Assembly: GCF_011806455.1 (NCBI RefSeq)
Contig: NZ_JAATOT010000002.1
Span: 124,001-188,000 of the forward strand
Source of the DNA: Celeribacter sp. HF31
Lineage (GTDB): Bacteria; Pseudomonadota; Alphaproteobacteria; Rhodobacterales; Rhodobacteraceae
Direction of reading: 5' to 3'
Length of the DNA stretch: 64,000 bases
The translations under genes and the position numbers were made by a program. This document shows, piece by piece, positions 1-49,096 of this stretch. Below the pieces are notes generated by a model. It was not told where the DNA came from, did no database searches, and worked only from the letters and a program-made list of their open reading frames with translations. Each line of letters opens with the position of its first letter. Positions within the stretch are counted from its first letter, which is position 1.

Positions 1-614
1 TGCGGCTCGAAATCATCCGCGATGTCGTCGGTATCGAGCGGCAGGATCGTATCCTCGTCTTCCACGTCTTCGATCAGAAAGATGCGCTCCACAGCGGCCA
101 CGAAGGTCCGCCGGGCGATCACCGGGCGCATGAGCTCCGCGCGGCCTTGCTGATCTACCATCAGATAAAACAGCGCCGGGCCATCAAACGGCTTCGGTGC
201 GTGAGGCAAGAGTTCACCAGCCCCGGCAACCTCGAACAGGTTCGGGCCACTGGCACGTTCTGCCCCAGCGCCTTTTTCCGAGCGCGGCTTAGGGTGGTCT
301 TGGCCACAGGCTTCATCGACGTTGCAGAACGAGACTTTGATACCGAGCGTATCGTTGCGGATTGCCTCGATCCCATCCTTGCGGTCGATTTCCCAATCGT
401 CACCAAGGTATTCACGACGCAGCGCGGCGACGCCATGGTGATAGGAAAACGTCCCGGCGGCATTGGACGGGTGCAGGCCTGTCGCGTTGTTGCGTTCAGC
501 AAGCGCGATGGCGACAACCCGCGAAAGCCCCTCAACCGTCAGGCCCAGTTGGGTGAGCCGGTGTGCGACGTCATCAACGTCGTGCAAGATGGTGGTCGGA
601 ATTTGTTCGGTCAT
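1..614 (-). CDS. Hypothetical island protein (C-terminus cut by window edge)
   Basis: The reading frame starts at the ATG at 614 and stays open through base 1, so 204 codons are visible and the C-terminus lies outside the window. The protein begins MTEQIPTT, has an N-terminal stretch like a helical bundle, and becomes acidic near the visible end (DTDDIADDF). I recognise no catalytic motif, signal peptide or membrane segment. It is the leftmost visible gene of the integrated island and is transcribed in the same direction as the other island genes. It may be an accessory or regulatory island protein, but no function can be assigned. Confidence 0.7.
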   Translation of the reverse strand, partial: MTEQIPTTILHDVDDVAHRLTQLGLTVEGLSRVVAIALAERNNATGLHPSNAAGTFSYHHGVAALRREYLGDDWEIDRKDGIEAIRNDTLGIKVSFCNVDEACGQDHPKPRSEKGAGAERASGPNLFEVAGAGELLPHAPKPFDGPALFYLMVDQQGRAELMRPVIARRTFVAAVERIFLIEDVEDEDTILPLDTDDIADDFEP

Positions 615-804
615 GCCTGCGCCTCGTGTCGATTTTCTTGACCTACAAGGTGGTCGAAAAAATCGGCAAGGTCAAGTACCATCTTACCCTTACCCCGGTT
701 CGAAGGCTATGCGCGGAGGGACCGCGTCCTACGCGCTCGCGAACAGGGTTCAGAGTTCATGCGTGATCCTCACGTTTCTAGCTGCTCTATACCCATACGC
801 CAGA

Positions 805-3800
805 TTACTCAAAGCGCTGTTCACGACTACTGTGCTCATCAGCCTCCTTTGCACGATTTTTGAGAACAGCCTGTTCGATCTCCTTCAATTTCTCCGTCAC
901 AAGCATTTTCACGTCTGGCGATGGATAATCGGACAAACTTGCCAACGCGCGGCCCCTTACTTCAAGGATATCTGCTAGCGAGCCGGACCAACCCGATGGC
1001 CATGTGCGTGAGAAGATGGTTTCAACTACCTCGGTCTTATTGTCGGATGCATCCAAGATGGCCATCATATGATCACTCAGCTTGACCTTACTTGGGTTTT
1101 CCAACGGTGCTCCCCCGCCTTCTAAAGTAGAGTATGGGCAAACCAACGTTGCAAGCTTACCCAGCTTCTCTTGATCTCCTCCACACCATGCAAGTAAGCG
1201 GTCAATTGAAGCTTCATTCAGCGAAGGCTCGTCCAAACCATAAGATCGGTCACGGAACACCATGTAACTTCGCAACTTTTCGCTGTCACCTCCCACGAGT
1301 ACGCAGTCAAGTACGAGTTCTGGGAAATTCTTGACCAAAGGTGAGATGAGGTCGCCGAGTTCAAAGCTGTACAGCCGGAAATTTTCGATCCCGTCAAATA
1401 CCAACTCCGCAATCTCGGAAACTTCCGAAATTGGTGCGCCTTCTCCAAGGCAGTAATTACACACGCGGCCGAGGCCGTGCGATTTGAGCTGGCGAACTTC
1501 ATCCTTTTCCTTGCCGGCCAATGACTTGATCACATGTCGGCCTGCGGACAAGATTTTTTCGTTGGGGAGGTAGGCACTGTCCCTCTCAATGAAAAAGCGC
1601 ATTTCTAGTATTTGAAGCGCCGCCGCAATTCCATTCGGGAGTTTTGCAATTGCCTCAATCAATTCAGTCAGGTCGTCGTCACAGATCGCCTCATGAACGC
1701 GACCAAAACTAATGTGAGCAAATGTCCATGCCTCAAGTTCCTTATCGCACGCCAGCTCAATGAGCCTTTTTATCCCCCAAGGTTCCAGCGGGGCCGCACA
1801 CAACAGATAGACAAAATGCTCTTTGAGTTTTGCGTTCTCAAGTACCGCTTCCTGTAGCTTCCTAGCTAGTACAGGGCTGTCCTCGTGAACTTCACGGATG
1901 AACCCGCTCAAAACAACAGGATTTACACGCGCAAGCGAAAAGCCATCTACAAGGCCAACAAGAAACTCAAAGGTTTCAACTTTGTTTTGACTTCCACGAG
2001 CTAGACCGCGCCCAAACGTCCAAATGGCATCAACGTGTTTCTCCCAAAGCCTATCCCCCAGACGTTCAATGTATGTGGGGTCGTTACAGGCAAGTTCGCC
2101 GAGTTTAATGATCTTCTCGTTGACGCCTTTCACTGCCTCTGAGTAATTGCCGCCTTTGACTTCGGCATGTTCCCAAGTGCTTGAGAGCACATAGGCTTCC
2201 ATCTCGGACATTGGGTCGCTCGGTGCTGCCAACCTTTCTAGTGCCTCTAGTCGATCAAGAAGCGCAGGATCATGCGTTTCGCCGTCGAAGTGGATCGTGT
2301 TCTTGATGGCTATCCAAAGGTCAGGCCAAATGCCACCCTTCGCATGATCTCGGACAATGCGTTCGAGCGCATCGAAGCAGCCCGCGAAAGCCCACAGTCC
2401 TCTGAACTTATTGGCAATCGCCATTCTTGCAGCGTCCACTTGCGAGCGTTCGTTCGATTGCAGCGCCTGCTCCAAAATAGCGATGTAGCCTTCGTACCAG
2501 TCAAGCTTCTCTCCGTGGGTCGTTGGACGCCATCCAGTGCCTCGCCTTCGTGCGCCAAAACCAAAGGTCGCAAAGGAGGACCAATGTGAAGCTTCCAGAG
2601 CTGAATTCAAAAGCTCAACAGCAATTTCCAAGTGCCTTGGATTGGGTGACGAAAACAATCTAGCGACAAATGCCTGACGCCGTGAGGGGCTTGCCTCTGT
2701 TCCCGACAAATAGAGCGAGAACAAGTGCTTCATTTGGCCGACAATGCTATTGTTTCTTTCACCTGCTCCCTCAGTCTCTGCGAACCGCAGCACCAAATCG
2801 GCAGCTCTTCCGAAGGTGCTGTCGTCGTAGGCGAGTTGACAAAGAAGCCGGACAATTTTCGTGAAGCTCGGGTTTTCTCTAGATGCAAACCCTGGCTGCG
2901 CAGAAGCACTCTCTAAGGCCGAGAGCACAGTTTCTGGAAAAACTGGAGCAATGTAGCTCAAGCAAGCCAACTGATCGGATGAACATGACGAAACGTCGTG
3001 CAAAGGTGCGCCCGCAGAAAGCCAGCTTTCAGCTAGGCCCCTAGCAGCTTCACAATCGTGCAGGTATCCAACCCGATGCGCACAAGACTTTAAGATGCGC
3101 TCGTTTCCCGGTTTAAAGAGTTCCGCATTGATCTGTGAAACTGTCAGATTTTCAAGGGCACGACGCGCTAGTCTGTTGGCAAGAGCGTGTGGGAGAACGG
3201 CTCGCCATTCCCCCCGTTTCTGTGCAATCTGCCTTCTTAACAATTCTGCTTGGTGGCGGTGTAATTCTGCACGGTCGATATTGGCAATCCTTCCAAGGGC
3301 TGACAACTCGTCGTTGAATTCAGCCTCGGAAGTATTGAATGAATAGACGAGCGACAATATTTCTGCGCTTTCAAGAAGGCTATCGCTTGCCCCTTTTCGT
3401 TGACTGAAGAGCCTTTGGAAAAGCTGTTGATCAGAGAAGTTTGCGAGAGTTTCGTCAGCTTCAACCCTACTCGCAAGAGCCAAAGCCACCCGTGCGTTTC
3501 CACCAGAGAATTCGGCAACTTTATCGCAATTAATGCGTCCTAGATCAGGAAGCCGCCGCTGAACAAGTTTCGAAACGGTCTCTTCGCTAGCAGGTTCCAG
3601 ATGGATGACCTCGGTTTCTTCGGGCCGGTCATCCGATATATCGTATTCGATTGAAAGTAACCTCAGCTTGGTCCCGCTTGAGGTGACCTTTTGCTGAAGA
3701 GTGCGATGCACATCTGGTGGGCAATTGTCTAGAACTAGGTAAGCGGCGATGTCATTGGCGATAAGGAATGTCACAAGCTCCGAGGCGGTTGGCGAAAGAT

Positions 3801-4632
3801 CATCACCAAGATCGGCGTAAATCGCATTGGAATGCGGCAGCGGGTCTTCGCCAACCCCATCTTCGAACAAAGCTTGGGCAAAACGGGATTTCCCAACTCC
3901 GGAAAGACCTGTTATGCGTGTAGCGCTTCCTCCAGATCGGAGCATATTCCTTACGAGTTCGATGCCCAATAATAACGTGATCGGCTCTTTGTTCGAAGAG
4001 CTTGCGGGAAAGACGCAAGGATGATCATCCGCAAGAAGTTCATCGTTCATACTGACCGGAGTTGCAGCCCATCGACCGTGCGGCTTCCAGCCCGACAAAG
4101 GCTTGCCCAACTTGGAACGTGCCCAAAGAGAAACTCCGGGGTGCTTTCGCAGCCAAGCGGCGATACGATCTCTCCCATAAAAGTCGAGTAGCAGATATTT
4201 TTTTTCGCTCAGCGAGGTCACGGCCTCATTCATGCCCTCCAAGCGATGCTTCAACATCTTGTCTGAACAGTCATCCTTGCCGCTTACGATTATATAGGCG
4301 CCTTTCCTCCGGGCGAGTTCAGCAATAATTGGTTTGACCGTACCCTTTTCGAGCATTTCTTTGGCGCATGCGGCTTTGCCCATTGTATGCTTCTTGACTT
4401 GAAACCCTGTATCGGCTTTTGGAACAAAATCAGGTGCTTTCAGTCCGTCTACTGCTGTAACACTGACGTCAAGCCCACCGTCTGCCGCCTCCTGTGCGCC
4501 CCCCCAAAGCACTCCTGAAGTTGGCAGCTCTTGCTGAAGTAGTTCTGCTTCGCATAGCCTTCCGATCAACTCTCGCAGGTCATCATCCCCAAGCTCAGAG
4601 ATATCTGCAGCGGAAAGCTCAAAGTATTTCAT
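805..4632 (-). CDS. PD-(D/E)xK nuclease - STAND NTPase fusion, candidate antiphage defence protein
   Basis: This 1275-residue protein has three parts. Residues about 1-180 look like an Mrr-type restriction-nuclease fold: GGLDV at 52-56 (D55) followed by FQVKKH (Q78, K80) fits the D...QxK active site of PD-(D/E)xK enzymes. Residues about 210-560 form a STAND-like P-loop ATPase, with Walker A ITGLSGVGKS at 240-249, a hydrophobic Walker B ending LVLDNCP (D302) and an SGGNARVALALA stretch near 376-388 like the GGxP region of STAND ATPases. The remaining ~700 residues are rich in helices and Leu/Ala and suggest a TPR/HEAT-like sensor. Nuclease-STAND-repeat order is typical of Avs-type proteins, which bind a phage protein, oligomerise and cut DNA; that role is inferred here. 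The gene stands alone, is visibly AT-richer than its neighbours, and lies in a tRNA-bounded island. It has only a weak ribosome-binding site (AGGCAGATTAA before ATG). A large single-gene restriction factor is the alternative. Confidence 0.75.
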   Translation of the reverse strand: MKYFELSAADISELGDDDLRELIGRLCEAELLQQELPTSGVLWGGAQEAADGGLDVSVTAVDGLKAPDFVPKADTGFQVKKHTMGKAACAKEMLEKGTVKPIIAELARRKGAYIIVSGKDDCSDKMLKHRLEGMNEAVTSLSEKKYLLLDFYGRDRIAAWLRKHPGVSLWARSKLGKPLSGWKPHGRWAATPVSMNDELLADDHPCVFPASSSNKEPITLLLGIELVRNMLRSGGSATRITGLSGVGKSRFAQALFEDGVGEDPLPHSNAIYADLGDDLSPTASELVTFLIANDIAAYLVLDNCPPDVHRTLQQKVTSSGTKLRLLSIEYDISDDRPEETEVIHLEPASEETVSKLVQRRLPDLGRINCDKVAEFSGGNARVALALASRVEADETLANFSDQQLFQRLFSQRKGASDSLLESAEILSLVYSFNTSEAEFNDELSALGRIANIDRAELHRHQAELLRRQIAQKRGEWRAVLPHALANRLARRALENLTVSQINAELFKPGNERILKSCAHRVGYLHDCEAARGLAESWLSAGAPLHDVSSCSSDQLACLSYIAPVFPETVLSALESASAQPGFASRENPSFTKIVRLLCQLAYDDSTFGRAADLVLRFAETEGAGERNNSIVGQMKHLFSLYLSGTEASPSRRQAFVARLFSSPNPRHLEIAVELLNSALEASHWSSFATFGFGARRRGTGWRPTTHGEKLDWYEGYIAILEQALQSNERSQVDAARMAIANKFRGLWAFAGCFDALERIVRDHAKGGIWPDLWIAIKNTIHFDGETHDPALLDRLEALERLAAPSDPMSEMEAYVLSSTWEHAEVKGGNYSEAVKGVNEKIIKLGELACNDPTYIERLGDRLWEKHVDAIWTFGRGLARGSQNKVETFEFLVGLVDGFSLARVNPVVLSGFIREVHEDSPVLARKLQEAVLENAKLKEHFVYLLCAAPLEPWGIKRLIELACDKELEAWTFAHISFGRVHEAICDDDLTELIEAIAKLPNGIAAALQILEMRFFIERDSAYLPNEKILSAGRHVIKSLAGKEKDEVRQLKSHGLGRVCNYCLGEGAPISEVSEIAELVFDGIENFRLYSFELGDLISPLVKNFPELVLDCVLVGGDSEKLRSYMVFRDRSYGLDEPSLNEASIDRLLAWCGGDQEKLGKLATLVCPYSTLEGGGAPLENPSKVKLSDHMMAILDASDNKTEVVETIFSRTWPSGWSGSLADILEVRGRALASLSDYPSPDVKMLVTEKLKEIEQAVLKNRAKEADEHSSREQRFE

Positions 4633-4813
4633 TTAATCTGCCTCAATACACTTTTTTGCCGAATTACATGTCTCGAAAGTTTTTCCGTTTAGCTTCGCAG
4701 ACGGCGACAGCCCCTATGGAAATCTCTTCAACCTCAACGATACTCTAAGCTCCATTCTCTTCAAGCAAAAGGCAAACCCCTTGGCCCCATCTGACCTTCT
4801 GTTTTCTCAGTCG

Positions 4814-5782
4814 TTACAACAGCGCGCCGGCCGCGTTCCCGTCGAACAAGCCCGCATCGCGCACATAGCGCGATAGCATCAGGTCCGATGCATGGCCTGT
4901 CTGTGCGCGTACCTTATAGGTCGGCACCCCGGCCTTGATGGCGCTGGTGGCGAGGCCTGCGCGGAGGCTGTGACCGCTGTAGCCCTCGGGGTTGATCCCG
5001 GCTCTGGCGAGGCGATTGCGCAGGATGGTGGACACGGCATCGGAGCGCAGGCGGTCGGATTGCACATTGCCGTGGCGGTCAACGGGACGGAAGATCGGGC
5101 CTTCTTCCGACGCAAGGACACTCAGCCACGCCGACAACGAGACCACGGGGCAATGACGGGTCCGACCGAGGGGGATGCCGATCTTGCGACCTTGGCCGGT
5201 CTGATCGGTTTTGGACCGGCGCAGGTGCAGCACCAGCCCCTCGCAGACCTCTTCGATATCGGCTAGATCAAGGCCGACCAGTTCCGAGGACCGGAACCCG
5301 CCCGCCCAACCGATCAGCAACAACGCTCGGTCACGTTTTCCACGGGCGTCATCCCCAAGCTTGTCCAGCAGAATGAACAGGTCTTCGCGCAGCAAGGGGC
5401 GGGCCTGATCCTGTGCTGTGCCCTTCAGTCGTTTGATCCCCCGCATTGTGGCGCGCACGATCTCGCTGCGGCACGGGTTCGGCCAGGCGTTCGCCTCGTG
5501 GACCTTGCTCAGGGTCGCCACACGCCGCGCGAGGCTGGACGGTGCCAGCGTGTCGGCGTGATCGGCCAGATAGCGGGCGACCAGATCAGCCGACGCGGGC
5601 AATTCCCCGCCGCAATCTGAGAAATGCGCCAGATCAGCCCGGTAGGCTTTTCGCGTGTTTGCAGACAGGCTTTCGCGAATGAAATGTTCGACGGCTTCGT
5701 CAGCGGTCAGTTCGGTGTTTTCCCCGCCCTTTGTGGGCCGGGATAAGAAAGGATTATGCCGGGTTAGGACGAGATCGCTCAT
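4814..5782 (-). CDS. Tyrosine recombinase (XerC/D-like phage integrase family)
   Basis: This 322-residue site-specific recombinase has a SAM-like core-binding domain (about 25-120) and a catalytic domain (about 130-315). The full catalytic set is visible: R164 in GGFRSSEL, K191 in RRSKTD, H271 and R274 in GHSLRAG, H297 in QTGHAS, and the nucleophile Y306 in SRYVRD. Its start ATG overlaps the stop of the upstream gene (ATGA at 5779-5782), so the two are probably translationally coupled. It differs from the P4-type integrase at 9073-10260. It may mobilise the STAND gene cargo or resolve circular intermediates, but its attachment site is not evident in the window. Confidence 0.9.
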   Translation of the reverse strand: MSDLVLTRHNPFLSRPTKGGENTELTADEAVEHFIRESLSANTRKAYRADLAHFSDCGGELPASADLVARYLADHADTLAPSSLARRVATLSKVHEANAWPNPCRSEIVRATMRGIKRLKGTAQDQARPLLREDLFILLDKLGDDARGKRDRALLLIGWAGGFRSSELVGLDLADIEEVCEGLVLHLRRSKTDQTGQGRKIGIPLGRTRHCPVVSLSAWLSVLASEEGPIFRPVDRHGNVQSDRLRSDAVSTILRNRLARAGINPEGYSGHSLRAGLATSAIKAGVPTYKVRAQTGHASDLMLSRYVRDAGLFDGNAAGALL

Positions 5783-6879
5783 GCCACGCCCTCCCGAACA
5801 ACCTCGGCCCGGATCGCGTTCAACTCCGGCATCGCATCCTTGAGAGCGGCCAGCCCGAATTCGAGCGCGTCACGCGGCAGACCTGAGCAGTCCCAATGCC
5901 ACCTGTCCCGAAGGCTGGCGCTCAGCGATCCGACCGCGTGACGGCGCAGGCACTGACCTTCGCCCCGAAAAAGCAACTCCCCGGCAACCTGCACCCGGTT
6001 TGTTCGCGGCAGGAACGCCCCGGCCCATGACGCCATGCCTTCATTTCGCAGGAGCAGCCGACCGAGGGCCGCCCGACCGGGCCGCGTGTACATGTCGAAA
6101 GCATAGGACGGCACCCCATTGATCCGCGTTTCAACCGGGGTTGGATCATCTTGAACCCCGGTTGCGACCACCCCGTTTTCGAGGGACAACAGAGCGACAA
6201 ACGGCGACAGCATGGCCGAGGTCTTGGTGAAGGTGGCTCGCGCGATCTGCACCATCGTTGGCGCGACGCCCAATTCAGCCAGGGTATCGAAGGCCATGCT
6301 TGGATCACCTTTGCGGGTCGGCAGGTGATCGCTCCGGCAACGGGCTGTGCCGACCAGATTCCAAAGCGCGAGAGCCTTTCGGTCGAGCGACGGACATCCC
6401 AGCACGATCTGGCGAAGGCGGTCATTGGACATCGCGGCGAACCGGGTGCGGTCCTCGGCCAAATCGGGCAGCCGTTCGAGGTTCATCAGCAGATCATCAG
6501 CCCCCCGAGATTTGCGGGCGTCGACCATGCGCCGGATGAGGTAGTCGGTGACTACAGCGTCCCCGCCAAGATCACGCCGCACCTTGGCGCTGGCAAGACA
6601 GGCGGCGGTGATCGCCACGGTTTCGATATCCGCCATGCCGATGTCTTCGGCGGCGATGACATTGAGACGACGCAGCAGGTGTTCCCTTTTGACCTCCAGC
6701 AAAAATCGTCCGGCTTGTCGCGCCGCATACGGGTCGCCCCGGCGTATGGCCTTCTGCAACAACGAGCTGGCGACCCACTGGGTGCTTGTGCACGGGGCGA
6801 TCCTTGGCCCCAGATCAACTGCGGCAATCCCTTGTGCGGCGATGGTCTGAAATCTGGTGAGTTTGGATGTGTCTATCAC
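5779..6879 (-). CDS. RarA/MgsA C-terminal-domain-like protein coupled to recombinase
   Basis: The 366-residue protein starts with GTG after a strong AAGGAGGG ribosome-binding site. Residues about 38-95 (AIRRGDPYAA...RRLNVIAAEDIGMAD) strongly resemble the helical C-terminal region of the RarA/MgsA AAA+ clamp-loader-like ATPases, which carry SIRGSDPDAA...RRL...ASEDIG. No Walker A or B motif is present, so the ATPase part is missing rather than hidden. The other ~270 residues are not recognised. The gene overlaps the recombinase start by 4 bp, pointing to a joint function, for example an accessory factor acting at stalled forks or recombination intermediates. That role is inference. Confidence 0.6.
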   Translation of the reverse strand: MIDTSKLTRFQTIAAQGIAAVDLGPRIAPCTSTQWVASSLLQKAIRRGDPYAARQAGRFLLEVKREHLLRRLNVIAAEDIGMADIETVAITAACLASAKVRRDLGGDAVVTDYLIRRMVDARKSRGADDLLMNLERLPDLAEDRTRFAAMSNDRLRQIVLGCPSLDRKALALWNLVGTARCRSDHLPTRKGDPSMAFDTLAELGVAPTMVQIARATFTKTSAMLSPFVALLSLENGVVATGVQDDPTPVETRINGVPSYAFDMYTRPGRAALGRLLLRNEGMASWAGAFLPRTNRVQVAGELLFRGEGQCLRRHAVGSLSASLRDRWHWDCSGLPRDALEFGLAALKDAMPELNAIRAEVVREGVA

Positions 6880-7185: not shown

Positions 7186-8271
7186 CTAGCTTTGATTGAT
7201 GGAGCCAGGTTTCAGGTTCGGGTACTTTTCGTGAAATTCGGAACTGTCTTCCGCCATGACAGCTTGCACTTCCTCCCAGGACATCTTCTTCTTTTTCGGT
7301 GTGCTCTTCGCCTTCTTTCCAGTCGATGGCGTTGTCTGCACTGATGAAGGCCCCGGCGCTTCAACCTTCGGACCGACAGTGCCCTTGGATACAAACTCTC
7401 CGTTAGCCCATTCGAGATTGTACTCCTGCTGCCAGAGGAAAATCGCCGTTTGGATGAATTTTAACAGGAAACCCGCTGTCGGCGTATCTGGCACCTTGAA
7501 TGCAGCGTGGTGCGTCTTCGCGTAGCCGATAAACAATGGCCAGTTCTCAATCGCGTGCCGGAGAATGTTACCAGCGTAGTCTGGCGGACAGGCATTAACG
7601 AAATCTTTGAGCTGCTTGCCTTGTACGGGCGTAAGCGGCAGCAGAGTGCCGGGGTAGCTTTTTTCGACTGCCTCCTGCCAAACCTCAGCGATTGGTTCGT
7701 TCAGCGGTAGCGGAAGGCCTGCGGCTGTTTTCTTTTCTCCCTCCCCGGAAAAGAGATTTCCCGAAGGGGGACTTGGTGCGTCTTCCGAATAGGAAGCGCA
7801 AACTGTCGTATCTGTCGTATTGATCGTTCCTTTCGGTGTATGTGTGTAATCGGTTGGCGCACCGATTGGAGCATTCGGGGGTGCAGCCGGAGGTGCCCCC
7901 GGTGGTGAATAGGCCGCACCGAGGCGCTTGATGTCGTCAGGCCTTCCTGCGTAGTCGAGTGCACGGGAAGAGGGTTGCAGATGCGTAAGGACCTTGGAAC
8001 CGCCGAAACGGTGGCGCTCGCTCAAGACAAGGCCATCGGCGACGAGAACGCGCAACGCTCGCTTGTACTGGTCGAGCGAAAGCCCCGAATGCTTACACCA
8101 TTCATGTCTTGGGTATACTGCCCAAGGCCCAGGCTTTCCCCGCACCTTGATCGTGCAGACCCGCCATCTGAAAATGATTGTGTCGAGCAACTTGGCGGCG
8201 TTCGGATTTGCCAGTCTCCAGCCCTTGAAATCCTTCAAGTCGTTGATCTGATACACGTCGGTAAGTTTCAT
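7186..8271 (-). CDS. Winged-helix, replication-initiator-like island protein
   Basis: The 361-residue protein has an N-terminal region (about 1-110) with the look of a winged-helix domain found in phage or plasmid replication organisers (HEWCKHSGLSLDQYKRALRVL, then a hydrophilic wing), a Pro/Ala/Thr-rich linker (about 115-180), and a helical domain (about 195-290) rich in aromatic residues. A Lys-rich segment (KKAKSTPKKKK) lies near the end. No catalytic motif is evident. The start codon overlaps the stop of a 29-codon ORF (ATGA), so it is translationally coupled to the genes upstream. It may initiate replication or recruit helicase for the excised element; a transcriptional role is the alternative. 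Confidence 0.55.
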   Translation of the reverse strand: MKLTDVYQINDLKDFKGWRLANPNAAKLLDTIIFRWRVCTIKVRGKPGPWAVYPRHEWCKHSGLSLDQYKRALRVLVADGLVLSERHRFGGSKVLTHLQPSSRALDYAGRPDDIKRLGAAYSPPGAPPAAPPNAPIGAPTDYTHTPKGTINTTDTTVCASYSEDAPSPPSGNLFSGEGEKKTAAGLPLPLNEPIAEVWQEAVEKSYPGTLLPLTPVQGKQLKDFVNACPPDYAGNILRHAIENWPLFIGYAKTHHAAFKVPDTPTAGFLLKFIQTAIFLWQQEYNLEWANGEFVSKGTVGPKVEAPGPSSVQTTPSTGKKAKSTPKKKKMSWEEVQAVMAEDSSEFHEKYPNLKPGSINQS

Positions 8272-9072: not shown

Positions 9073-10260
9073 TCAAGCCTCCCGTTGCTGATCTATGTAA
9101 TCGCTGATGGCCTGAGCTGCTTCTCGCATCATTTCGGGATCCGTAAGGATTTGATATCCCGCTGTAACATCGCCACCGATGGCATGGTTCATGAGCCGAC
9201 GGATTTTGGATTGCTGGACATCAAGACGGGTGGCCACCGTAGAAAAGCTACGGCGCAGATCATGGAAACTAACGGGCCAGCCAAGGGCCTCACGAAATGC
9301 CGTGAGCGTCTTGCGTGGGTCGCCATAGGGTGAAGGCCCCCAGACATAGGTTTCGCCCCCGGTGCGCCCTTTTTGAGCCTCCAAAAGCGTCACGGTTTGC
9401 TCGGCCAATGGAAGCGTCATGGCTTCACCATTTTTTGCCCTCTCGGCGATGATGGTCAACGTCTTAGCCTTCAGGTCTACATCGGCCCATTCGAGATGTG
9501 CGGCCTCCCCCTTTCGCAAACCTGTGCGAGCCAAAAGTTCAACATAGGTGCGGAATTTCTTGCCCGCCTCGGGGTACCGATTTGAATTGGTTTCAAGGTT
9601 GTCCAATGCCTCAAAAAACGCCTTCCAATCGCTCACAAACGTCTTGCGGCGCTTGGGCTTGGGCATGATCTTTTTGCGCTTCACAATATCGGCGGGGCAT
9701 TCAGGCAAAAGCGGGTTTCCCTCGGCGTCGGTCACGTCAGCCCGTGCCCAATTCCAACAAGATTTGAACGTGCGCACGGCCAGAGCGGCCCCGGCGGGGG
9801 TGCGGTCCTTGATTTCGTGAAAGCGGATCTGGAATTGCTTGGGTGTGATCCGGCGCATTTCCATGCTCAGCCAATCGCCAAACTCACGCTGCATCGTAGC
9901 CCGGTATGTCGCAGCCGTGCCCTCACGGTGTGGGCGCTCTTCTAGCCACCCATCGACAGCTTGGCCGAGGGTCATGAGCTTGGCCCGGTCTTGTCTGAGT
10001 TGAGCGTTGCGGTCTTTGCCGTCGGCCATTTCAGCCAGCGCCTTCATGGCGAGCTTTCGGGCATCATTGAGCGTCAAGGTGTCAGCCCGGCCAAGCGTGA
10101 CGCGCCGGGTTCTCCCCTTCACGCGGCTTTCAGCGAAATAGGATTTCGATCTCGTGCCAACCCTCACACCAAACCCCGGCAACGCGTCGTCTGTGATCAA
10201 CGACTGCCCGGTTCTAGCAAGCGGCAGGTCTCTGACGAATTGCGCTGTCAGCTTCGGCAT
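9073..10260 (-). CDS. P4-like tyrosine integrase of the genomic island
   Basis: The 395-residue integrase has an N-terminal DUF4102-like arm-binding domain (LPGFGVRV...ESRVKGRTRRVTLG, 27-57), a central core-binding domain (about 95-180) and a catalytic domain (about 205-385). Active-site residues are R249 (TGLRKGE), K277 (RAKNGE), H333 and R336 (FHDLRRS), H359 (MNHA) and Y369 (GYQIL). Enzymes of this class insert islands into tRNA 3' ends. Here the gene reads away from a tRNA-Asn 3' fragment about 165 bases upstream, with direct repeats in between. It is therefore very probably the integrase that placed this island. Confidence 0.93.
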   Translation of the reverse strand: MPKLTAQFVRDLPLARTGQSLITDDALPGFGVRVGTRSKSYFAESRVKGRTRRVTLGRADTLTLNDARKLAMKALAEMADGKDRNAQLRQDRAKLMTLGQAVDGWLEERPHREGTAATYRATMQREFGDWLSMEMRRITPKQFQIRFHEIKDRTPAGAALAVRTFKSCWNWARADVTDAEGNPLLPECPADIVKRKKIMPKPKRRKTFVSDWKAFFEALDNLETNSNRYPEAGKKFRTYVELLARTGLRKGEAAHLEWADVDLKAKTLTIIAERAKNGEAMTLPLAEQTVTLLEAQKGRTGGETYVWGPSPYGDPRKTLTAFREALGWPVSFHDLRRSFSTVATRLDVQQSKIRRLMNHAIGGDVTAGYQILTDPEMMREAAQAISDYIDQQREA

Positions 10261-10400: not shown

Positions 10401-10425
10401 AATGGGATAAAACGACAATTGGTAA

Positions 10426-10470
10426 CTGTTAATCAATTGGTCGTAGGTTCGATCCCTACCGCCGGAGCCA
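10426..10470 (+). other. Attachment site: 3' fragment of tRNA-Asn (island boundary)
   Basis: CTGTTAATCAATTGG starts the 3' half of a tRNA-Asn (anticodon GTT): variable loop, T-stem GTAGG and CCTAC around TTCGATC, acceptor strand CGCCGGA, discriminator G and CCA at 10468-10470. The 5' half (D arm, 5' acceptor strand, 5' anticodon stem) is absent, so this is not a functional tRNA. It marks the displaced 3' end left at one end of an element integrated into tRNA-Asn. The restored full-length tRNA should lie at the other island end, left of the window. Confidence 0.8.
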
Positions 10471-10499
10471 ACCACACTCTAAATGGTTGGAAATAAATG

Positions 10500-10604: not shown

Positions 10605-11736
10605 TCAAAACCCAGAAACCAATTCCTTCGCATCCCTCATCTCGAACTGCGCCCTCAGGGCTATCTCTGGCGCAGACGTTTGGTTGATATCATTTCTTTG
10701 CCAAGAAACCAGCGCCGGATGCTGACCGCCCAAGGCAGAATGCGGGCGCTGGTGGTTGTAGAAGGTCATCCATTTCCTGATGGCCGCCTTTGTCTGCGAA
10801 CCGGTCTCCCAAACATGCAGGTAGACACACTCGTAATTCAGGGTGCACCACAGCCTCTCGATGAAGATGTTGTCGAGGGTGAGCTTGCGAACGACCTTTC
10901 CCATCCATCGAAATCCGCACGCCAGATCGACGCAGCCGATCCGTCCAGGCGAAGGAGGTGACCTGGATTCCCTGATCGGTGTTCATGATCTCGGGCAGGC
11001 CGAACGTGTGGATGGCCTCGTTCAACGCGTCGATGCAGAACTGGGCTTCCAACGTGTTCGAGATCCGCCAGGACAGAGCTTTGCGGGTGTGCCAGTCCAT
11101 GATCGCCACGAGGTAGAGGACCCCGCGGCGCATCGGCAGATAAGTGATGTCCGAGCACCAGACCTGGTTCGGGCGATCCATGCGCAGGCCTCTCAGCAGA
11201 TAGGGATAGGTCTTGTGCCCCTTCGCTGGCCTGCTGGTCTTGGGTTTCCGGTAAATCGGCATGAGCCCATCAGGCGCATCAGCCGCCCTATCCGCTTCTC
11301 GTTCACCAGGGGACCGTCGTCACGCAGGTGCCAGGTCATCTGGCGGACGCCGAAGAACGGGGTCTCCCGGAGCTGCTCGTCAATCTGCCGCATCACGCCG
11401 AGGTTCTGTTCGGTCTCGCCCTTCGGGGAGTAGCAATAGGACGAGCGCGCCATTGACAGCAGCTTGCACGGCTGCCCAATCGACAAGATCCGGGAGGTCA
11501 GGCTCGATCATGCCGCGCCTCACTTGCCGGTCCACGGTTTGAGCTTTCGTTTTGCGGTTCCCGCCCTCGAACACGCAAGACGCGCCTTCGAACAGGGCTT
11601 GCTTCCATTGGTGGATCATCGTCGGATGCCCCCCGAACCGGCTTGCCAGCTCGGCGGCTGTCTCCTCGCCCTTCAGGGCTTCCAGCGCGACTTTCGCCTT
11701 GAACTCAGGCGCGTGCTGCTTGCGGTTCGACATCAT
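10605..11736 (-). pseudogene. Decayed IS3-family insertion sequence (orfA/orfB, frameshifted)
   Basis: Reading right to left, orfA begins MMSNRKQHAPEFKAKVALEALKG (typical IS3 helix-turn-helix) but loses its leucine-zipper end by deletion. orfB follows in at least three different frames: SIGQPCKLLSMARSS..., then RPNQVWCSDITYLPM...NTDQG, then DNIFIERLW...RPHSALGG. The DDE residues are all recognisable (D in SDITY, D in NTDQG, E in IERLW) but no single frame joins them, so the transposase is inactive. I could not identify the terminal inverted repeats or a target duplication. It sits just outside the tRNA attachment site. Confidence 0.85.
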
Positions 11737-49019: not shown

Positions 49020-49096
49020 CGGGCTATAGCGCAGCCTGGTAGCGCGTCCGTCTGGGGGACGGAAGGTCGCAGGTTCGAGTCCTGCTAGCCCGACCA
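49020..49096 (+). tRNA. tRNA-Pro (anticodon GGG)
   Basis: The 77-base sequence folds as a cloverleaf: acceptor CGGGCTA with TAGCCCG, discriminator A and encoded CCA at 49094-49096; anticodon stem TCCGT/ACGGA with loop CTGGGGG, giving anticodon GGG for CCC codons; T-arm GCAGG-TTCGAGT-CCTGC. It lies between the merR gene and dcd. Confidence 0.96.

Follow-up and report, generated by a model that had tools for sequence, protein, structure and literature searches.

A PD-λ-4_A-type STAND protein without component B on a mobile defence island of Celeribacter sp. HF31

Does the large protein encoded near the start of a 64,000-nucleotide stretch of the Celeribacter sp. HF31 genome (the window, by which we mean the whole stretch of DNA analysed) represent a new type of antiphage defence, or does it belong to a system that has already been described? 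A first-pass annotation, made from the sequence alone, had proposed it as a single-gene, Avs-like sensor-nuclease and a candidate new defence type, possibly a new class. By its sequence the finding holds up but its novelty does not: the protein is a member of the PD-Lambda-4_A family at a locus that lacks component B. We think it probable that this is a PD-λ-4_A-type antiphage protein, most likely one in which a sensor, a STAND switch and an effector are joined in a single chain.

Family assignment and relatives

The open reading frame (ORF) at 805–4632 of the window (minus strand) starts with ATG, is free of internal stops and encodes 1275 residues. It matches the PADLOC profile PD-Lambda-4_A (PDLC03991) with 994.2 bits over its full length, residues 1–1275 aligning with profile positions 1–1283. 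Since the system has been known since 2022, this match rules out a new antiphage defence type and, with it, the new class envisaged at first. No other PADLOC family, Avs included, matches the protein at E ≤ 1; the first-pass annotation was thus right in failing to find a known Avs group for it. Because none of the Avs types 1–5 is matched, we regard the protein as one that works like Avs and not as a member of Avs. The E. coli reference protein (WP_217823150, L032:8001–11852), about 33% identical to the window protein, matches the same profile over its whole length with 2524 bits.

PD-λ-4 reportedly stems from a screen in E. coli published by Vassallo et al. in 2022. A table in PMC10952713 lists it among the systems of that study, as a P-loop NTPase (nucleoside triphosphatase); the name ‘lambda-4’ is absent from the main text of the study itself (PMC9519451). 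Our literature search found no account of the PD-λ-4 mechanism.

Relatives were collected at 113 loci, comprising 80 genome contigs (the best 80 of 371), 15 viral contigs and 18 others, among them plasmids, genomes of the same family and one E. coli genome. After removal of two duplicates (L018, contained in L113, and L101, from the same record as L012) and addition of the window, the alignment held 112 rows. Because only the best 80 of 371 were used, the sample leans towards close relatives with a nuclease-type front, and the frequencies of effector types in it are not estimates. The closest relative among those 80 is from Hyphomonas atlantica (63% identity). The gene occurs in one of 20 genomes of the genus; some match was found in seven of 198 genomes of the family and is long in four, the HF31 genome included. 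Homologues are present in 43 plasmid records and at 15 loci on contigs classed as viral; a search of phage records for relatives gave no match. Among 5426 complete E. coli genomes, 151 carry the PD-Lambda-4_A gene; in 131 of them at least 80% of its length lies at a single site. In the E. coli H73 and H96 copies, an IS3-family transposase is annotated inside the matched stretch. By eye, locus L132 has a 1579-residue open frame for a PD-Lambda-4-type protein, with about 330 extra N-terminal residues and a helix-turn-helix-like start, followed by a domain that contains a D...QxK motif.

In a tree built by a quick method from the core sequences of 109 of the 112 rows, without bootstrap, the window protein clusters with Hyphomonas and with two proteins of Pseudomonas (Shimodaira–Hasegawa-like approximate likelihood ratio test, SH-aLRT, 100) inside a 28-row clade. 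This clade, together with one more row, is sister to a 19-row clade in which the E. coli protein lies; all 48 rows together are monophyletic at SH-aLRT 100. The wider family extends to Bacillota, Chloroflexota, Acidobacteriota, Nitrospirota, Bacteroidota and others; the phyla are mixed on the tree, which suggests horizontal transfer without proving it.

A search of the whole HF31 genome (13 contigs, 3.6 Mb) found a single copy of the gene, at 124808–128632 of contig C6, of which the window is part. A weak match elsewhere on this contig, at C6:491787–492128, was rejected as a second copy: it lies in another large protein (1330 aa, L015:5919–9911) that resembles PD-Lambda-4_A only weakly, over profile positions 559–664, and has no PADLOC match at E ≤ 0.01. 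By eye, a gene near the latter resembles a type III restriction or helicase subunit.

Conserved motifs and predicted structure

Three parts can be distinguished in the protein, with boundaries set by eye from the structural model and all coordinates on the minus strand. The N-terminal domain (residues 1–182, 4087–4632) is a putative Mrr-like nuclease of the PD-(D/E)xK type and carries D55 (codon 4468–4470) and Q78-V79-K80 (codons 4393–4401). It is followed by a STAND NTPase with a winged-helix-like region (residues 195–500, 3133–4050), containing the Walker A motif GLSGVGKS (residues 242–249, 3886–3909) and a Walker B motif that ends at D302 (3727–3729). The remainder (residues 501–1270, 823–3132) is modelled as an all-helical, HEAT-like solenoid and is the candidate sensor. 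Both Walker motifs had been reported in the first-pass annotation, as had D55, Q78 and K80, which stand at exactly those residues.

These motifs are no chance finding, being strongly conserved. In 109 rows (the 112 aligned rows including the window, less three with a hydrolase in front), D55 is D in 105 (four gaps), Q78 is Q and K80 is K in 106 each (three gaps), K248 is K in all 109, and D302 is D in 108 and E in the other row. The gaps come from L046, L119 and L082, for which the ORF used lacks the protein start, and from L029, which has a different N-terminal domain. An alignment of 106 N-terminal domains bears out the D...QxK signature, D55, Q78, K80, E92 and R130 all being invariant. Mean pairwise identity in the 108 nuclease-type rows is 48% for residues 1–182, 46% for 195–400 and 51% for 401–500, and falls to 37% for 501–790 and 27% for 791–1275; in the 27 rows of the window clade the corresponding values are 67, 71, 69, 57 and 47%. 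The far C-terminus is thus the fastest-diverging part of the protein, as would be expected of a sensor.

AlphaFold2 models were obtained for residues 1–620 (94 sequences; predicted local distance difference test, pLDDT, 89.8) and 480–1275 (92 sequences, pLDDT 90.6). Compared with the PDB by Foldseek, the first gave as its top match Avs3 with terminase (8dgc, E = 8.3e-8), followed by a STAND-TPR protein (6mfv, 1.4e-7), Apaf-1 (1.6e-6) and Avs4 with portal (8dgf, 4.8e-6), as well as CED-4, NOD2 and plant NLRs. Alignment, model and Foldseek together reveal a Walker A motif, a Walker B motif and a NOD-type fold, so that the STAND ATPase predicted at first is well founded. The long helical C-terminus, too, reappears in the model of residues 480–1275, where it forms a solenoid whose Foldseek matches are HEAT proteins such as transportin-3 (4c0p, E = 1.6e-6), importins and FANCI; no Avs protein is among the 50 matches listed. 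The solenoid lends support to the suggestion that the C-terminal repeats may act as a sensor.

Exchange of the N-terminal domain in relatives

Four plasmid-borne relatives carry a different front. In L025 (Lelliottia), L027 (Vibrio halioticoli) and L028 (Enterobacter roggenkampii) the PD-Lambda-4_A match begins only at profile position 158 or 168, and about 250–260 residues of α/β-hydrolase stand in place of the nuclease. The hydrolases of L025 and L028 are above the Pfam cut-offs, all three have a GHSLGG- or CHSLGG-type elbow, and all three match PADLOC DUF626_VIII with 70–77 bits. The fourth, on a Moraxella osloensis plasmid (AP031474.1; L029:4503–8249), is a natural chimera encoded by one ORF of 1248 residues: residues 3–248 match Avs4 (225 bits) and residues 163–810 match PD-Lambda-4_A (423 bits). 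Among the matches listed for its first 167 residues are E. coli and Salmonella plasmid proteins of 46.6–50.6% identity, many of them annotated as Avs4. The Avs4-type chimera is known from this single record, and a search of viral contigs yielded no further example.

If the protein is built as effector, switch and sensor, such an exchange of the front is to be expected while the STAND/sensor body stays conserved. The Avs4-type front of L029, moreover, ties PD-λ-4 to Avs by sequence and not by analogy.

The nuclease assignment

Is the N-terminal domain indeed a nuclease? In the model it is an α/β domain with pLDDT mostly of 80–95 (below 50 at residues 47–50), and its order of strands and helices over residues 1–182 appears compatible with a restriction-endonuclease-like fold. 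D55 lies beside strand 56–58, and Q78 and K80 lie in strand 75–80. A D beside a strand with Q and K within a strand is the arrangement of Mrr-type PD-(D/E)xK nucleases. Compared with the Avs4 nuclease alignment, the N-terminal profile scored an hhalign probability of 86.9%, a modest result given a template of four sequences. We consider the domain a probable nuclease, on the strength of the conserved motif.

The domain might instead bind DNA or protein, with the STAND module acting as an ATP-dependent translocase or blocking the phage in some other way. The domain has no significant sequence match to a characterised nuclease, and E92 and R130, whose conservation equals that of the motif residues, might serve a different chemistry. 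This alternative nevertheless seems improbable to us in the face of an invariant D-x(22)-Q-x-K motif placed on its strands in the Mrr-type manner, a profile similar to that of the Avs4 nuclease, and natural replacement of the front, at the same junction, by an Avs4-type domain and by hydrolases.

The role of component B

In E. coli, PD-Lambda-4_B lies directly downstream of A. The PD-Lambda-4_B model has no match in the HF31 genome, and for this reason we classify the window protein as a PD-Lambda-4_A protein and not as a complete two-gene system. It could be that PD-λ-4 needs component B, and that a locus without it is decayed, incomplete or reliant on an unrelated partner encoded elsewhere, which the E. 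coli arrangement and the lack of B in the HF31 genome would both fit. The wider sample makes us think this improbable. Lack of B is the usual state there: B was found at two of 113 loci (111 of them distinct), one of them the E. coli locus and the other a viral contig carrying an almost identical copy, and in none of the five whole records holding close homologues. The window ORF is intact, its motifs are conserved, and no other neighbour is conserved. The idea of a conserved partner gene was rejected after a comparison of 838 neighbouring ORFs, each no shorter than 80 aa and no further than 4 kb from the gene, at 109 loci; the largest neighbour family occurs at nine of the 109, on either side and on both strands. 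The search of the 113 loci for B used one 248-aa B piece as query, some loci end near the gene, and a diverged B would escape these counts.

On these sequence comparisons, A occurs as a stand-alone gene in the sample, to which B looks like a local addition. The description ‘single-gene’ is therefore correct at this locus and fits the usual state in the sample, even if E. coli does have B. The PD-Lambda-4_B of E. coli EC71 (L032:11898–12810) consists of two ORFs overlapping in different frames, which cover model positions 1–245 and 245–303.

The C-terminal tail

The protein ends in a short conserved motif, EQRFE (808–822, minus strand). Of the 112 rows of the family alignment, 100 share the exact terminal FE and 85 the terminal RFE. 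This end is kept although the region around it is the least conserved of the protein; the model shows its final four residues as disordered. Several of the remaining 12 rows end in FEW, FES, FEP or FDW, three (L052, L056 and L126) come from truncated or disrupted ORFs, and the two most distant rows, L014 and L026, lack the motif. The hydrolase-type rows retain the tail (ERFE, ERFEW, ENFEP) and the Avs4-type chimera ends in RFDW, so that in both the tail travels with the STAND/sensor part. An E. coli Avs4, in comparison, does not end in FE.

The defence island

The gene lies on an element of about 13 kb integrated at a tRNA-Asn gene (C6:121400–121474), upstream of the window. The 3′ end of this tRNA is present as an exact 47-bp direct repeat at C6:121429–121475 (L010:13429–13475) and C6:134425–134471, 12,996 bp apart from start to start; the second copy, at 10425–10471 of the window (plus strand), marks the inner end of the island. 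The claim that the island is tRNA-bounded is thus right in substance, by virtue of the repeat; within the window itself the sole complete tRNA is a tRNA-Pro at 49020. Two recombinases accompany the gene, as had been noted, both above the Pfam cut-off for Phage_integrase: a tyrosine recombinase of the Xer/integrase family upstream of the gene (4814–5782, minus strand; PF00589, 54.9 bits) and the island integrase beside the inner att copy (9073–10260, minus strand; PF00589, 55.5 bits, and Arm-DNA-bind_3, PF13356, 43.4 bits).

In the order of transcription, the tyrosine recombinase, PD-Lambda-4_A, RmrT, RmrA and PDC-S11 follow one another on the same strand. RmrT, the RosmerTA toxin (1–614, minus strand; PADLOC RmrT, 247.6 bits), is cut by the window edge; RmrA (559.5 bits) and PDC-S11 (412.9 bits) lie outside the window, the tract of the three reaching over L010:13845–16614 (minus strand). 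The gap from PD-Lambda-4_A to RmrT is 190 bp, and those from there to RmrA and PDC-S11 are 8 and 11 bp. PDC-S11, a candidate nuclease gene with a weak NucS_C match below the Pfam cut-off, may be in the same operon. PMC10440598 describes RosmerTA (RmrT/RmrA) as a defence system of a toxin and an ImmA-protease antitoxin.

The same tRNA-Asn is occupied in two of 19 other genomes of the genus, where a copy of 47 or 50 bp lies at a distance of 14.5 or 17.2 kb and the contents differ. In one (G593, L150) the occupant is a prophage that carries genes for portal, capsid, terminase, tape measure and integrase; in the other (G606, L149) it is another element. The tRNA is thus an integration site, and the gene arrived on a mobile defence island. 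This location invites the view that the protein serves competition between mobile elements, such as exclusion of plasmids or prophages or maintenance of the island, and not defence of the host against lytic phages; the occupants of the site in sister genomes and the homologues on plasmids and viral contigs would agree with it. We hold this unlikely, if a little less so than the two alternatives above, since PD-λ-4 is listed as an antiphage system and came from a phage selection. The two roles are, furthermore, not mutually exclusive.

The rest of the island and its border hold several further features. The start of the Xer-like recombinase overlaps the end of a 366-aa ORF, and the two (4814–6879) are possibly a mobile cassette within the island; the ORF matches MgsA_C with 22 bits, short of the cut-off of 27, and matches nothing in PHROGs at E ≤ 0.001. 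For a 361-aa ORF within the island at 7186–8271 (minus strand), searches of Pfam, NCBIfam and PHROGs gave no match within the limits applied. An IS3-type transposase (rve, rve_3, HTH_21, HTH_Tnp_1) lies immediately beyond the inner att copy, at 10605–11736 (minus strand); its frame is split over several overlapping ORFs.

A model for the activity of the protein

The best mechanism that we can propose for a PD-λ-4_A protein acting alone combines Avs-like sensing with nucleotide-driven activation of a probable N-terminal nuclease; the sensing and activation are suggested by the structure matches and the domain exchange, the nuclease by a conserved motif. The protein would rest as an ADP-bound monomer. 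Binding of a phage product by the solenoid would be followed by binding of ATP and by oligomerisation through the STAND module, and the oligomer would bring the N-terminal domains together. Thus joined, these would cut the DNA of the phage, perhaps also that of the host, and the infection would stop. Of the Avs-like sensor-nuclease first envisaged, the Avs-like mode of working and the defence island hold, supported by the Foldseek matches, the motifs, the HEAT solenoid and the Avs4 front exchange, and the novelty of the class does not.

Several observations weigh against this model. Neither Pfam nor NCBIfam has a family that matches the window protein at E ≤ 0.1, and the best result of sequence searches of the PDB (E = 0.021) concerns the Walker regions; neither these searches nor that made with the N-terminal profile returned a nuclease of the D...QxK type. 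Pfam Mrr_cat is matched by one of the 106 N-terminal domains, at E = 0.051. The template modelling scores (TM-scores) of the first 20 Foldseek matches of residues 1–620 are low, 0.20–0.31 on the query, as expected for the superposition of a complete multi-domain chain. The genome lacks component B, which belongs to the system in E. coli, so that A alone may not have the full function. Examples of a swapped front are few, three with a hydrolase and one of Avs4 type, all of them from plasmid records. A simple sigma-70 scan of 600–5000 of the window gave no promoter-like site, against a shuffle mean of 2.4.

Taken more widely, PD-λ-4_A may form a further branch of Avs-type immunity, a proposal to which we give an even chance. 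The branch would comprise a stand-alone STAND/HEAT sensor spread over several phyla that swaps effectors (D-QxK nuclease, Avs4-type nuclease, α/β-hydrolase), with B as a lineage-specific accessory and the -RFE tail essential to the sensor or the switch. In place of the claim of a new type stand statements that can be tested, namely that A needs no partner, that its architecture is that of Avs, and that one effector can be exchanged for another. Should they prove true, PD-λ-4 would join the NLR-like sensors of bacteria, the Avs4 chimeras would provide ready-made means to study sensing and killing separately, and the conserved tail would offer a new handle on activation.

Comparison with known systems

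The most distant comparison is that with Apaf-1, CED-4 and the NLRs, which share the STAND core by Foldseek; their effector and sensor domains are different and only the switch is comparable. Avs5 has the layout of effector, STAND and sensor in common with the window protein, but according to PMC12931631 it combines a Sir2 effector with nSTAND3, and the window protein has no such Pfam match.

The models, Foldseek and the exchange of the front all show in the window protein the Avs-type layout of effector, STAND module and repeat sensor. Avs3 and Avs4, which are among its best Foldseek matches, have the same arrangement of an N-terminal effector, a STAND ATPase and a C-terminal sensor, and in L029 the PD-λ-4 body begins with an N-terminal domain of Avs4 type. 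The window protein differs from them in having no PADLOC Avs match at E ≤ 1, in its shorter length (1275 aa, where the chains of the solved structures have 1534 and 2028) and in its C-terminus, which looks HEAT-like, whereas the C-terminal part of Avs proteins is TPR-like. The FE end, lacking in an E. coli Avs4, is a further difference.

The closest known system is PD-λ-4 of E. coli. The window protein belongs to a sister subclade and its genome is without PD-Lambda-4_B, but the two proteins match collinearly over their full length, have the same invariant residues and end in the same -FE tail.

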